This document shows positions 5,360 through 14,823 of a stretch of 14,823 bases of DNA, one piece after another. The DNA comes from Archangium sp. (GTDB lineage Bacteria > Myxococcota > Myxococcia > Myxococcales > Myxococcaceae). The stretch is from positions 1 to 14,823 of the forward strand of contig JAEUJR010000431.1 in the NCBI GenBank assembly GCA_016793585.1, in the 5' to 3' direction. Positions within the stretch are counted from its first letter, which is position 1; the number at the start of each line of letters is the position of its first letter. The notes beneath the pieces are model-generated. The model did no database searches. It was not told the origin of the DNA and worked only from the letters and a program-made list of their open reading frames with translations. The translations under genes were made by a program, and so were the position numbers.

Positions 5360-6385
5360 ATGCGCGCACTGGTGAACCGGAAGGCTGGGGGACCCGAAGT
5401 TCTCGTCGTCGAAGAGCGACCCGATCTCACACCGGGTGCGGGCGAGGTGCGCGTACGGGTGAAACGCGCCGGCCTCAACTTCGCCGACATCTCGGCGCGC
5501 GTGGGTCTGTACCCCGACGCTCCGAAGTTCCCCATGGTGATGGGCTACGAAGTGTCAGGCGTCGTCGATGGCGTTGGCGCTGGCGTCACGTCACTCCAAG
5601 ACGGCGACCGCGTCACCTCGATGTGCCGCTTCGGTGGCCAGGCGACGATGATCTGCGTGCCGGCGTCACAGGCCCGCCGCATTCCCGACGCGATGAGCTT
5701 CGACGAGGCCGCCGCCCTGCCCGTCAACTACCTCACGGCGTACCAGATGCTGTTCTGGACCGCGCCCATTCGGCCGGGAATGACGGTGCTGATTCACATG
5801 GCCGCCGGGGGCGTCGGCCTCGCGGCGATTCAGCTGTGCAAGACCGTCGAGAACGTGACGATGCTCGGCACCTCGTCTGCGGGCAAACACGAGGTCCTTC
5901 GCAAGCAAGGCCTGCACCACCCCATCGACTACCGCACCCAGGACTACGTCGCAGAGACGATGCGGCTCACCGACAAGCGCGGCGCCGATCGCATTCTCGA
6001 CGCGCTCGGCGGCAAAGACTGGGAGCGCGGTGTGTCGGCCTTGCGATCTGGCGGCACGCTCTACGCGTTCGGCTGGGCGAACATGATCGACGGCGAGAAA
6101 CGCAGCCTGCTGCACGTCGCGAAGGAGTTCCTGTCGATGCGCAAGTGGAGCCCCATGCAGTTGATGGACCTCAACAAGGGCGTCATCGGCATCAACCTGG
6201 GGCACCTCTGGCACGAAGGCGCGCTCATGGGGTCGCACCTCGACGCGCTGCTCGCGATGTACGAGCGCGGGCAGATCAAGCCTCACGTCGATCGCGTGTT
6301 CCCCATGTCGAAGGCGGGGGAAGCGCACGCGCATGTGCAGGGGCGCAAGAACGTCGGCAAGGTGCTCTTCGACGTCGAGGCCTGA
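5360..6385 (+). CDS. VAT-1-like zinc-free quinone oxidoreductase (MDR superfamily)
   Basis: A 341-residue medium-chain dehydrogenase/reductase. The N-terminal GroES-like half has GLNFADISARVGLYPDAP (about 38-55) and GYEVSGVVDGVG. The Rossmann half has the NAD(P)H-binding motif HMAAGGVGLAAIQLC with AAGGVG at 148-153, then GTSSAGKHEVLRKQGLHHPIDY. The conserved NLGHLW segment follows. These are hallmarks of the VAT-1/quinone oxidoreductase branch, which lacks the catalytic zinc cysteines of alcohol dehydrogenases. The expected activity is NADPH-dependent reduction of quinones or enones; the substrate is unknown. The frame is open far upstream, but homology begins at the ATG at 5360. No Shine-Dalgarno sequence is seen. 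The stop directly abuts the stop of the convergent gene at 6386. Confidence 0.9.
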   Translation: MRALVNRKAGGPEVLVVEERPDLTPGAGEVRVRVKRAGLNFADISARVGLYPDAPKFPMVMGYEVSGVVDGVGAGVTSLQDGDRVTSMCRFGGQATMICVPASQARRIPDAMSFDEAAALPVNYLTAYQMLFWTAPIRPGMTVLIHMAAGGVGLAAIQLCKTVENVTMLGTSSAGKHEVLRKQGLHHPIDYRTQDYVAETMRLTDKRGADRILDALGGKDWERGVSALRSGGTLYAFGWANMIDGEKRSLLHVAKEFLSMRKWSPMQLMDLNKGVIGINLGHLWHEGALMGSHLDALLAMYERGQIKPHVDRVFPMSKAGEAHAHVQGRKNVGKVLFDVEA

Positions 6386-6982
6386 TCAGATTCGTTCGAC
6401 ACCAATCTCGCGAAGCGCCTGAACGAACTCGCCCTGACCGATCGACTCTCGGGCGCCGCTGCGCAAGACGAGAAAGGTGAAGTGCGCGTTGAACGAGATG
6501 GTGATGCCGGCGATCTCCCGGGGCGCGATGGCGCGACCCGACAGCACCACCATTTCGCGTGAGACGGCGACGGGCGGCATCCGAAGGAAGAAGAGCGCGG
6601 GCACGAAGCAGAAGATGGCGCACACGGGAGCCCGGGTGACCGCCATCACCACCACGAGCGTGATCGCAATCGCGACGCCGATCGGTCGAAGGTCGCGGCT
6701 GCGCGAGACGTAGATGGGGACGTGGGCTCGGAGCGTGGCCACGGCGCTGGCGACCGACTCCACCCTCGTCGCATCGCGGAGAAGCGTCAGCACCTCACGA
6801 ACCGCGGCCAGGAAGTGCTCCCGCAGTGGCCATGCGGGATCGCCTGGCCTGAAGTCGTCGAGCACCGACGCAAAGGCCGAGAGCCGATCGAGATCGCTCG
6901 CCCACAGTCGGCCGCGCTCGAGGCGCTCGAGCAGCGCTTGCAGCGTCATCTCCGCTCGGCGAATTCGGTCTGCGTGCTTCAC
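6386..6982 (-). CDS. Tandem membrane paralog 3 (short, divergent), unknown family
   Basis: A 198-residue protein of no family I recognise. It resembles the two genes upstream of it. A charged helical N-terminal region (1-80) precedes HVPIYVS (87-93). Two hydrophobic helices follow (about 100-116 and 118-133), then a beta-rich tail starting PPVAVSREMVVL (136-147) and ending GEFVQALREIGVERI. The equivalent segments in the paralogs are HVPIRLS and VPVVVSASSLRL. The helical region is about 21 residues shorter and much less similar. The GTG at 6982 forms a GTGA overlap with the preceding stop and is preferred to an upstream start at 7021. No signal peptide is present. The function is unknown, and the C-terminal fold may be PH-like by inference. 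Confidence 0.8.
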   Translation of the reverse strand: MKHADRIRRAEMTLQALLERLERGRLWASDLDRLSAFASVLDDFRPGDPAWPLREHFLAAVREVLTLLRDATRVESVASAVATLRAHVPIYVSRSRDLRPIGVAIAITLVVVMAVTRAPVCAIFCFVPALFFLRMPPVAVSREMVVLSGRAIAPREIAGITISFNAHFTFLVLRSGARESIGQGEFVQALREIGVERI

Positions 6983-7704
6983 GATGGGTCCTCGGCCCGC
7001 ACCGACACGGAAACGCGGCAAGTCCGGAGCGCCGCGAGCAGCGGGTCAACCGCGCCCGGGAGCAGCACCTCGCAGGTGGTGCCAGCGGACGTCTCGATCG
7101 TCGCCACCACCATCGAAGGCCCGTCGATCACGATTCGCCTGAGGTCGTCGAGCGCCCACGAGCGCGCTCCCAGCCGCAACCGCGTCGCCGACACCACGAC
7201 CCGCTTCGTTCCGTGCACGAACGAGACGCCGAGCAACGCCAGGGCTGCGATCAGCAACGGCAAGACGGGAACGCCCGCAGGCATCACAACGGCCGCCCCG
7301 ATCAGCAACGCGGGAATCAGCAGCGCTCCGACTTTCTCCCTGCGCGTGCGGGCCAGGGTCGTGGACAAGTGAATTGGAAGGTGAGGCCCGAGGGCTGCGC
7401 GAACCTCGTGCAGCGAGCGTGGCAGGGGCACATCGAGGTGCCGACACAATCGCCGTGCCCCGCGAAGAAGCTGCGTCATCTCTGCGGCGACGGCTCGAAA
7501 CGCGGCGACGACCTCTGGGTTCGTCGAAAACCGCCGCGTGGCAGGCACCATCGCCGCGATCGTTCGTAGCGCCAGGTCGACTCGCTCCAGGTCCTCCCGT
7601 GCCACGCGTGTGTTCCGCATCAGCGCCCCGACTCGGCGCATGTTCTCGACCGCTGCTTCGACCTGCTCGAGGCGGCCCTCGAGCGCAATTCGCACGTCGC
7701 TCAC
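6979..7704 (-). CDS. Tandem membrane paralog 2, unknown family
   Basis: A 241-residue protein. From the GTG at 7704, residues 1-116 align with the preceding paralog without gaps: IALEGRLEQVEAAV against IQLEGKLEQVEAAV, and RSLHEVRAALGPHLPIHLS against RSVHEVQRLLMPHVPIRLS. This supports the chosen start and the GTGA overlap (7701-7704). Helical region 1-105, then HLPIHLS (108-114), then hydrophobic segments at about 125-145 and 146-163 that would make a membrane hairpin. The C-terminal beta-rich domain begins KRVVVSATRLRLGARSWALDDLRRI (167-191), continues through an ETSAG turn, and closes with a helix (AVDPLLAALRTC). The layout suggests both termini face the cytoplasm. I do not recognise the family and assign no function. 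Confidence 0.83.
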   Translation of the reverse strand: MSDVRIALEGRLEQVEAAVENMRRVGALMRNTRVAREDLERVDLALRTIAAMVPATRRFSTNPEVVAAFRAVAAEMTQLLRGARRLCRHLDVPLPRSLHEVRAALGPHLPIHLSTTLARTRREKVGALLIPALLIGAAVVMPAGVPVLPLLIAALALLGVSFVHGTKRVVVSATRLRLGARSWALDDLRRIVIDGPSMVVATIETSAGTTCEVLLPGAVDPLLAALRTCRVSVSVRAEDPS

Positions 7705-8474
7705 GGCGACCACCACGAGGTGAGGCCCGAGCGCGAGACAGGAACCCCAGCAGCTCGAACCGCGGCCATCAGCCCGTCGACCGCGTTCGGAACCTTCACG
7801 CGTGTCGTGCGGCCGAGCGTGGTCTCCACGACGATCACGACCCGCTGCCCCCGCTGCTGCGCCCAGCCTGGAATCTCGAAGTGCACGTTGCGCAGCTCAC
7901 GAAGGCGCCACTCGAAGCGGCCCAGCCGCAGCGAGCTCGCCGAGACCACGACTGGCACCGAGCGCACCGCGAGGAAACCGAGCTGCACCAGCCACACGAT
8001 GAGGAAGATCGGCGGCATCGGTGCGCCGTGCGCTCGCCCCGTCTCGAAGGTGATCATCGCCGTCACGAACATCGAGAAGACGAACATCGCCCCGAACAAC
8101 ACGAGCTCCGAGCCACGCGCGATCAGGCGCGTGCTCAACCGAATCGGAACGTGCGGCATCAGCAGCCGTTGCACCTCGTGGACCGAGCGCGGCGCCTCGA
8201 GGCCCAGGGTTCGGCACAGCCTGGCGGCGTTTCGCACGAGCGCCTCGGTCTGGCTGCGAACCGAGGCGAGCACCCCGTTGACCTCGGCGCTGTCCCGGCG
8301 CCTGCGAAGCTGCGGCAGCAACGCCTCGAGGGTCTCGAGCTGCGGCGTGAGGTTGGCGAGTTCATGCGGCCGAATCGTCTCGGCTCGAATCGAAGCACTC
8401 ACCTGCTTCAGCGCCACGACAGCGGCCTCGACCTGCTCCAGCTTGCCCTCGAGTTGAATGCGTGCCGCGTCCAT
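7701..8474 (-). CDS. Tandem membrane paralog 1, unknown family
   Basis: A 257-residue protein and first gene of the three-gene set. The helical N-terminal region (1-105, probably coiled coil or helical bundle, rich in Leu, Glu and Arg) ends at the motif HVPIRLS (108-114). Two membrane helices lie at about 123-143 and 154-173. The C-terminal domain (174-245) has strands VPVVVSASSLRLGRFEWRL and VVIVVETTLGRTTRVKVP and ends in a helix AVDGLMAAVRAAG. The strand-turn-strand then helix order resembles bacterial PH-like domains found after membrane hairpins, but this is a shape match and not a motif match. The ATG at 8474 has no strong Shine-Dalgarno sequence. The stop overlaps the next start as GTGA. 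Function unknown. Confidence 0.83.
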   Translation of the reverse strand: MDAARIQLEGKLEQVEAAVVALKQVSASIRAETIRPHELANLTPQLETLEALLPQLRRRRDSAEVNGVLASVRSQTEALVRNAARLCRTLGLEAPRSVHEVQRLLMPHVPIRLSTRLIARGSELVLFGAMFVFSMFVTAMITFETGRAHGAPMPPIFLIVWLVQLGFLAVRSVPVVVSASSLRLGRFEWRLRELRNVHFEIPGWAQQRGQRVVIVVETTLGRTTRVKVPNAVDGLMAAVRAAGVPVSRSGLTSWWSP

Positions 8475-8615
8475 GTCCGGCCGCGATGCAGGTCAGACGC
8501 CAGCTCCAGCCCATTGAAACAAGGCGCGCGTTCTGGCCCAGACGCGATTCTTCTCGTGTTCGCCAGCAACTGACTCACGCGCACGATCGGTCGGCCTGTG
8601 GCATCACCTCGACAC
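8475..8615. promoter_or_regulatory. Divergent intergenic region, signals not resolved
   Basis: This 141-bp gap separates the leftward three-paralog operon from the rightward small-protein/desaturase/kinase block, and it is the largest non-coding stretch in the window. It should contain promoters for both directions. TTGAAA at 8514-8519 on the + strand resembles a -35 hexamer, but no acceptable -10 follows at 16-18 bp. I found no sigma-54-type GG/GC pair at proper spacing and no clear operator palindrome. No small open reading frame here stands out. Confidence 0.3.
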
Positions 8616-8822
8616 ATGACCGAGCCCGCGTCGAAGCCCCCTTTCCTCAAGGCCGCCACTGTCATCTGGGCGATCGTGATCGTCGCGGCGCTCGTGTGCA
8701 CGGCGACGGGCGTGGTGACGCTCTTCGGCTCCAAGTTCGGGCCCGGCTTCGACCCGGAGCGCATTCAACGCACGCCGCCCTCGAGCAGCCGGCACACTCG
8801 CCCCGACGCCGGCGGCTTCTGA
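8616..8822 (+). CDS. Small single-span membrane protein, hypothetical
   Basis: A 68-residue reading frame from the ATG at 8616. It has a short polar N terminus (MTEPASKPPFLK), one strong hydrophobic helix of about 20 residues (AATVIWAIVIVAALVCTATG, 13-32), then a polar tail rich in Pro, Ser and Arg (PERIQRTPPSSSRHTRPDAG). The positive charge before the helix and the lack of a cleavage site fit a membrane anchor. No family is recognised. Support comes from this well-formed membrane segment, the lack of any competing frame on either strand, and its place at the head of a same-direction gene run. No clear Shine-Dalgarno sequence is visible. A slightly longer form starting at 8598 is possible. 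Confidence 0.55.
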   Translation: MTEPASKPPFLKAATVIWAIVIVAALVCTATGVVTLFGSKFGPGFDPERIQRTPPSSSRHTRPDAGGF

Positions 8823-8862
8823 GATTGGAACTCGAAGGCCCTGCCGTGCTTTCAATCGCACC

Positions 8863-9090
8863 ATGAAACGCGGACTGAGGCTTGCTTCGGTGGTGATGGC
8901 GGTCTGCTTCGTCTGTGCTGCCGCGCTCGCGCAGACCAACGCCGCGCCGAAGCCAAAGAAGACGACGCTCGATGCTGGCACGCCGGTTCGCATCGACTAC
9001 CTGCGCACGACCAAGGCCCCGCCGATGGACTTCCGCCGCGAAGAGTCACCGCCTCAGGCGCCTCAGCAACCGCCAGCCCAGAAACCATGA
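8863..9090 (+). CDS. Small secreted proline-rich protein, hypothetical
   Basis: A 75-residue frame with a classic Sec signal peptide: MKRGLR, a hydrophobic core (LASVVMAVCFVCAAA) and a likely cleavage after ALA near residue 23. The mature part is about 52 residues, basic at first (KPKKTTLDAG) and Pro/Gln-rich at the end (SPPQAPQQPPAQKP). It contains no cysteine and no recognised domain. Its stop overlaps the start of the sterol-desaturase gene as ATGA (9087-9090). This coupling is good evidence that the small gene is real and is expressed with the desaturase. It could act in the periplasm or at the outer membrane, but nothing in the sequence specifies how. Confidence 0.68.
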   Translation: MKRGLRLASVVMAVCFVCAAALAQTNAAPKPKKTTLDAGTPVRIDYLRTTKAPPMDFRREESPPQAPQQPPAQKP

Positions 9091-9945: not shown

Positions 9946-12528
<2,583 letters not shown>

Positions 12529-13582: not shown

Positions 13583-13930
13583 TCAGCCGTCGCTGCGCGC
13601 TCCTGGCAGGCAGGCGCCGACGGGCGCGCCCCGGCCCTTCCCCGAGCTCGGCAGCGTCCAGTACTGCCCCGCTTCGACGAACTGCCCGCAGCGCTGCTGA
13701 GCCGGGCACTGCAGATCGCCTTCGCACGGGTCGACGCACTCCCCCATCGTCGCGAACCCATCGCTCGCCGGCTTCACGAGGCACCGCTCGCTGCCGTGGC
13801 AATCGGCGTGCACCAGACACGGCCCGTGAATCGGCTTCGCGCGCGTCGTGGGCGTGAGCACCCAGGCTGCGATCGTCGCGACCAGCAGCCCGGGAAGAAT
13901 GAACCGCCGGTACTTCTGCAACGCGTCCAT
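13583..13930 (-). CDS. Small membrane-anchored cysteine-repeat protein, hypothetical
   Basis: A 115-residue protein. After MDALQKYRR comes one hydrophobic helix (10-25), probably an uncleaved N-terminal anchor. The outer part has eight cysteines (38, 44, 50, 65, 69, 75, 81, 107). They form two copies of Cys-x5-Cys-x5-Cys, PCLVHADCHGSERC and PCEGDLQCPAQQRC, plus Cys65 and Cys107. This is an internal duplication of a disulfide-knot type of module seen in secreted proteins of myxobacteria and their relatives. The family name is not known to me. The ATG at 13930 shares one base with the lon stop (TGATG). Downstream, 21 bp away, is the DsbA-like gene, whose product could oxidise these cysteines. 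Confidence 0.78.
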   Translation of the reverse strand: MDALQKYRRFILPGLLVATIAAWVLTPTTRAKPIHGPCLVHADCHGSERCLVKPASDGFATMGECVDPCEGDLQCPAQQRCGQFVEAGQYWTLPSSGKGRGAPVGACLPGARSDG

Positions 13931-14823
13931 CAAGACGGCGTGGGCGAGACCTCAGGCGAGGTGCGGAAGAAGTCCTCGGGGTGCTCGAGCTTGAGCGCCT
14001 CGCGGAGCACCTCGTCGACCGAGTCGACCAGTACGATGCGCATCGCCGAGCGAATGTTCTTCGGGATGTCGCGCAGGTCTTTCTTGTTCTCGCGCGGCAC
14101 GATGATGGTCCTGATGCCGAGGCGATGCGCGGCGAGGCACTTCTCCTTGAGCCCGCCGATGGGCGTCACGCGGCCACGCAGCGTGATCTCTCCCGTCATG
14201 GCCACGTCGCGGCGAACTGGAATGCGGGTGATCGCCGAGACCAGCGCCGTCGCCATCGTCACGCCCGCCGACGGCCCGTCCTTCGGGAACGCGCCGGGGA
14301 AGTGAATGTGCATGTCGTTCTTCTCGAAGAAGGCGTCTTCGATGCCGAGGCGGCGCGCGCGGGTACGAACCCACGTCACGGCCGCCTGCGCAGACTCCTT
14401 CATCACGTCACGCAGCACGCCGGTGACGATCAGCTTGCCCTTGCCGGGCATCGTCGTGGCTTCGGTGTGCAGCACTTCGCCGCCGTACTCCGTCCACGCG
14501 AGGCCGTTCACCATGCCGATCTGATCGGTCTTCTCGTTCTTGTCCTTCGGAACGCGGGGCACGCCGAGCAGCTTCTTCACGCGGCGGCGATCGACGCGAA
14601 TGGGGCCCTTGTCTCCGCCGATGACCTCGCGCGCCACCTTGCGGAACACCGAGGCGATCTCACGCTCGAGGCTGCGTACGCCCGACTCCCGCGTGTAGCG
14701 GCGAATGACGGTCTTGAGGCCCAGCGTGGTGAGCGCGACCTTGGTGTCTTTGAGGCCGTTCGCTTCCTGCTGCTTGGGAATGAGGTACTTCCTCGCGATG
14801 CTGAGCTTCTCGTCTTCGGTGTA
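13930..14823 (-). CDS. lon: ATP-dependent Lon protease, C-terminal 297 residues (partial)
   Basis: The frame enters from the right edge and is open to the stop at 13930-13932. The first part (YTEDEKLSIARKYLIPKQ) is the AAA+ lid. TVIRRYTRESGVRSLEREI leads into the proteolytic domain. Residues of this fragment include the catalytic Ser185 (KDGPSAGVTM) and Lys228 (GGLKEK, second Lys), spaced as in the Ser679/Lys722 dyad of E. coli Lon. MTGEITLRGRVTPIGGLKEK and HFPGAFPKDGPSAG are near-invariant in the family. Lon degrades misfolded and regulatory proteins in the cytoplasm. The N-terminal and ATP-binding domains lie beyond the window. The last 20 residues (after LEHPEDF) are polar and poorly conserved. 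The stop overlaps the next start (TGATG). Confidence 0.97.
   Translation of the reverse strand, partial: YTEDEKLSIARKYLIPKQQEANGLKDTKVALTTLGLKTVIRRYTRESGVRSLEREIASVFRKVAREVIGGDKGPIRVDRRRVKKLLGVPRVPKDKNEKTDQIGMVNGLAWTEYGGEVLHTEATTMPGKGKLIVTGVLRDVMKESAQAAVTWVRTRARRLGIEDAFFEKNDMHIHFPGAFPKDGPSAGVTMATALVSAITRIPVRRDVAMTGEITLRGRVTPIGGLKEKCLAAHRLGIRTIIVPRENKKDLRDIPKNIRSAMRIVLVDSVDEVLREALKLEHPEDFFRTSPEVSPTPS

Follow-up and report, generated by a model that had tools for sequence, protein, structure and literature searches.

The question raised by this locus is whether three neighbouring genes for membrane proteins in Archangium sp. are copies of one family and whether their products act together. The window analysed is the whole 14,823-nucleotide stretch of contig JAEUJR010000431.1 (assembly GCA_016793585.1), and the genes, here designated A, B and C, follow one another on its minus strand at 7701..8474 (257 aa), 6979..7704 (241 aa) and 6386..6982 (198 aa). 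All three encode the motif H[VL]PIx[LV]S, as HVPIRLS at residues 108-114 of A (8133..8153), HLPIHLS at residues 108-114 of B (7363..7383) and HVPIYVS at residues 87-93 of C (6704..6724), confirming the leftward gene order and shared motif given in a preliminary description of the window. Our analysis points to a family of three paralogues, and we give a probability of roughly 0.45 to the reading that their products form a scaffold in the inner membrane, facing the cytosol, whose three diverged subunits derive from lineage-specific tandem duplication.

A and B are clear paralogues, sharing 36 % identity by BLASTP (E 1.75e-34) and aligning without gaps across their first 116-123 residues at 41-42 % identity, in agreement with the gapless stretch of about 116 residues described earlier. 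In BLASTP, C was not significantly similar to either A or B (best E 1.1), and a C profile (A2, 10 rows) aligned with a narrow profile (A1, 12 rows) over just 83 columns, all N-terminal, with a probability of 58 %. Against a broader profile (A4, 34 rows), A2 scored 48.4 over 185 columns, almost the full length, with a probability of 90 % and an E value of 1.4e-6 that applies to one single comparison. Shuffling of columns, confined to three regions that were kept apart, gave scores of 14.3 ± 2.5 with a maximum of 24.1 (150 shuffles), and the reversed profile scored 15.2. Because 48.4 far exceeds these controls, C is taken, on profile comparison, to be a true, strongly diverged paralogue, and the earlier view of the third gene as a shorter, diverged copy holds. 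The alternative that C is an unrelated membrane protein, prompted by the empty BLASTP result and the partial first profile match, is ruled out by the shuffle control.

The three genes also overlap. A and B share 4 bp at 7701..7704 and B and C share 4 bp at 6979..6982, both reading GTGA on the minus strand. Homologues start at or near the GTG codons in these overlaps, and the likely starts are GTG at 7704 for B, within the stop of A, and GTG at 6982 for C, within the stop of B; the mechanical list of open reading frames (ORFs) puts both slightly upstream. Both overlaps are retained in the one related locus compared with the window (L010), as ATGA between A and B and GTGA between B and C, in line with the retained coupling of the preliminary description. 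A promoter and terminator scan of positions 6300-8700 gave no signal above chance.

Structures were predicted for single chains of A and C. The model of A comprises a predicted N-terminal helical bundle (residues 2-89, 8208..8471), which was matched to bundles in the fold search, and a probable PH-like domain, whose strands 1 and 2 are separated by a predicted membrane hairpin (residues 121-170, 7965..8114). The motif lies upstream of the hairpin and enters strand 1 (residues 113-117), and residues 173-249 (7728..7958) form the remainder of the probable domain. A scan of hydrophobicity and charge agreed with the position of the hairpin in A and placed hydrophobic regions at residues 122-167 of B (7204..7341) and 95-141 of C (6560..6700). 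Net charges flanking these regions are positive on both sides (A +3/+3, B +2/+2, C +2/+1), as in 26 of 44 rows by this crude scan, which misplaces the region in some rows; they lend weak support to a hairpin with both ends inside. Of the architecture earlier ascribed to all three proteins, two hydrophobic segments and a probable PH-like C-terminal domain are supported in A; in C this domain is suggested by profile alignment. A SNARE-like reading of the helical bundle of A was retained as no more than a fold resemblance to the syntaxin Habc domain. The sole syntaxin-type Pfam row for A was Syntaxin_2 (E 0.12, 12.9 bits against 26.5), and there was no row for a SNARE segment. A phage origin was also looked for, and A had no match in a viral fold library at E ≤ 0.001.

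Comparison with known families set A, B and C apart from any that has been characterized. No Pfam model exceeded its cut-off and no NCBIfam model matched for any of the three, and PADLOC defence models matched none of five proteins, A, B and C among them, at E ≤ 0.1; membership of a characterized family was rejected on these results. Pfam rows below threshold were DUF2397 and Syntaxin_2 for A, Snf7, Talin_middle and PhaC_N for B and ENOD93 for C. PHROGs gave one match, of 29 residues in the membrane segment of A (E 2e-4), to a family of unknown function, and we read it as a hydrophobic-segment match. Even with E values up to 5 allowed, neither A nor B nor C had a row for DUF3093 (PF11292), and they are not assigned to this family. 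The relative P0010 passes the DUF3093 cut-off by 0.1 bit (23.1 against 23.0 bits), its residues 114-192 aligning to positions 2-80 of the 140-position profile, the strand-hairpin-strand region. At E ≤ 0.1, DUF3093 matched three of 34 members, P0010 included (the other two at E 0.06-0.09), and weak matches to further PH-like families comprised bPH_10 in three members (known here by its best E value alone, 2.5e-4), DUF6232 in two, bPH_2 in one (E 0.02) and bPH_4 in one, the last three families all under their respective cut-offs.

DUF3093 proteins consist of a strand, a membrane hairpin and then PH-like strands, and the same order is predicted in the model of A; the A/B/C family differs in having some 100 residues, including a helical bundle, ahead of this module. 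The half with the membrane hairpin and PH-like domain resembles a known kind, and the whole protein looks like a lineage-specific variant. The earlier designation of an unrecognized family is therefore overstated, in view of the membrane-PH half. Among 14 control genomes, PF11292 was matched in Corynebacterium glutamicum only. Other DUF3093 copies were considered as a source of the family; none of seven genus-level genomes matched PF11292 (E 0.1), in a search that also misses A-B-C and so carries little weight. The literature listings contained no paper on the A/B/C family, for which there is no name to use as a query, and DUF3093 occurred in one paper, a mutagenesis study that has it in a table. 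In the sections of Xu et al. (2010; PMC2817789) that deal with families of PHb domains, the PHb1/PHb2 family PF08000 is the one without membrane segments, unlike A with its predicted hairpin after strand 1; membrane families with PHb domains are grouped together, strand 1 seemingly missing (section 16), and PHb oligomerization is proposed to build membrane transporters or pores.

The family is small, fast-changing and lineage-specific. Protein searches listed 10 proteins for query A, nine for query C and 24 for a B-centred alignment, with P0010 listed twice, and full-length A-type proteins were present in nine database clusters besides the window (P0001-P0009). The four homologues with an organism label derive from metagenome-assembled genomes (MAGs) of Myxococcaceae (two), Archangiaceae (one) and Myxococcales (one), and a genome-contig scan confirmed one locus, on an Archangiaceae MAG contig lying in genome G001. 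A profile of A, B and a further type, D, matched two of 145 genomes of the order (E 1e-5) and two of 195 of the phylum (E 1e-4), the same pair in both cases (G001 and G096); these genome searches score just the top candidates from an initial pass, and distant copies may escape. At family level, the A1 profile matched four of 96 genomes at E 0.01, the two besides G001 and G096 (E ~0.004, 55-78 positions) being treated as chance, and the C profile matched one of 96 (G001). In a tree of 39 rows, drawn with a midpoint root for display only, A, B and C each formed one group (support 97/94, 100/100 and 100/100), with C on a branch of length 3.19; fragments P0035, P0036, P0038, P0040 and P0041 were left out, and P0042 (137 aa) was excluded from every alignment. 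Type D, which includes the G096 copy, is not one group and needs two changes, the branch bearing A, B and P0010 lying within or beside it. P0010 is basal to B (99/97), a placement made unsure by its long branch. The simplest reading is that a D-like single gene was duplicated into A and B, the copy number of D being known from G096 only.

Mapping the slot in related genomes, the survey of copy number and order suggested in the preliminary description, revealed three genes, one gene, a scar or none. One flank is largely conserved (rsmE, pepP, a membrane protein with a near-threshold DUF2914 match, molybdopterin oxidoreductase, glutaredoxin, BolA, AlgH and the quinone oxidoreductase gene qor), and the other carries a DsbA-like protein and Lon. 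The qor anchor was found in six of seven genus-level genomes (E 1e-60), G092 standing outside the slots compared. The slot holds A-B-C in G001, one D gene and a beta-helix-type protein in G096, and a beta-helix protein with a putative deletion scar in G094; about 45 bp separate qor from the next gene in G093, and qor adjoins the DsbA-like gene in G091 and G095. In G094, a 74-bp match (90.5 % identity) spans the ends of qor and of the D gene, the D-gene body has no match, and homology returns upstream of the D start. One frame at L017 ~8240-8300 still gives VTQTGGLW-stop, equal to the D tail, and the relic is short, since just 29 nt are identical in the last 51, which align without gaps. The L017 site is probably the scar of a deletion that left the tail of a D-type gene, and a gene of the A/B/C/D family has probably been lost at least once. 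The three-gene, one-gene, scar and empty states together therefore mark an accessory locus.

The beta-helix-type protein occurs at L017 8498-10342 (G094, the copy scanned with Pfam) and L009 7149-9080 (G096); the slots of the window and of G001 lack it. At 8598-9090 (plus strand) the window carries two small hypothetical genes that match no Pfam family and are retained by the slot in G001, G096, G094 and G093. A Ser/Thr kinase-TPR gene (9946-12528, plus strand) separates the genes for the fatty-acid hydroxylase and the DsbA-like protein. Because these two adjoin or overlap in the same four genomes, the kinase gene looks like an insertion specific to this lineage. A small protein encoded at 13583-13933 (minus strand) partially matches the WAP domain, scoring 23.2 bits where the cut-off is 20.8. 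As had been anticipated, the neighbours do not allow a function to be assigned.

Under the scaffold reading, duplication at one chromosomal slot would have given rise to a lineage-specific tandem family. Each protein would sit in the inner membrane, anchored by a hairpin threaded between PH strands 1 and 2, with its helical bundle and PH-like domain both in the cytosol. The PH-like domains may bind a peptide or protein in the cytosol or may pack against each other edge to edge; the bundle may offer a further surface for interaction. In the A-B-C lineage, the three subunits, now diverged, would be translated together and would probably assemble mutually; in the single-copy relative, a homo-oligomer would serve the same role. 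We favour hetero-assembly because of the overlaps in the window and L010 and the indirect co-occurrence of the three types. A narrower version, in which a hairpin inside the PH-like domain and three diverged subunits combine in a hetero-oligomeric inner-membrane ring or platform, appears doubtful. Several observations weigh against the scaffold. G096 has one copy and lacks B and C, hence three subunits are not required in every carrier, and this relative and the scar argue against an essential three-part machine. The model of C is of poor quality, with a mean pLDDT of 62.6, and none of the 50 matches listed in its fold search is a PH entry, which is why the profile alignment has to carry the PH-like domain of C. 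A CBS match, weak and a misfit with a PH-like domain, was found in two of 10 C-type members (P0011-P0019 and C of the window; best E 0.0013).

The single-copy state would also suit three paralogues acting apart, each of these PH-like membrane proteins being a homo-oligomer and having its own partner, the tandem being a trace of duplication. The deep divergence of C and the differing ratios of non-synonymous to synonymous substitution (dN/dS) of A, B and C are consistent with this, whereas the retained overlaps and indirect co-occurrence suggest joint use, and we consider separate action rather unlikely. Less likely again is a module for export, or for self-protection when the cell meets antimicrobial peptides or attack on its envelope. 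Its models would be YdbS/YdbT and the DdE/DdF pair of leaderless bacteriocin loci, which the relevant parts of PMC8657885 describe as adjoining membrane proteins with two transmembrane helices per PHb2 domain (one such domain in DdE and YdbS), DdE and DdF being required for bacteriocin export. The likeness in architecture and the patchy presence and fast evolution of A-C would fit, but A, B and C lack a bPH_2 match over cut-off (the weak one is in a single member) and a recognized bacteriocin locus, the PADLOC search was empty, and no Pfam match among neighbours suggested a peptide transporter or bacteriocin, very short ORFs not being searched.

Least likely is a decaying or near-neutral accessory locus without important function, for which the scar in G094 and the gap in G093 might speak. 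Rates were compared between the window and G001, one genome pair, by the Nei-Gojobori method, with glutaredoxin and BolA not included. Protein identity was 74 % for A, 81 % for B and 82 % for C, against 88.6-100 % in nine conserved neighbours (FAhyd 88.6, rsmE 92.7, the other seven 95-100) and 82 and 85 % in the two small hypothetical genes. The dN/dS values of A-C (0.22-0.41) exceed those of the conserved neighbours (0.00-0.13) and the small hypothetical genes are equally loose (0.22-0.25); A-C therefore evolve faster than the former, not faster than the latter. Values below 0.5 for A, B and C nonetheless indicate purifying selection, and the full-length A-type proteins in other clusters, along with overlaps kept in the one relative checked, also argue against decay.

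Membrane-anchored bacterial PH-like proteins are poorly understood, and a locus that naturally exists in related genomes with three genes, one gene, a scar or nothing at the same position offers a good setting for studying how one such protein becomes a set of subunits. An anchor threaded through the fold is a concrete topology that can be checked in larger families. Should hairpin insertion prove general, the membrane PHb families said in section 16 of PMC2817789 to lack strand 1 may have that strand upstream of the hairpin.
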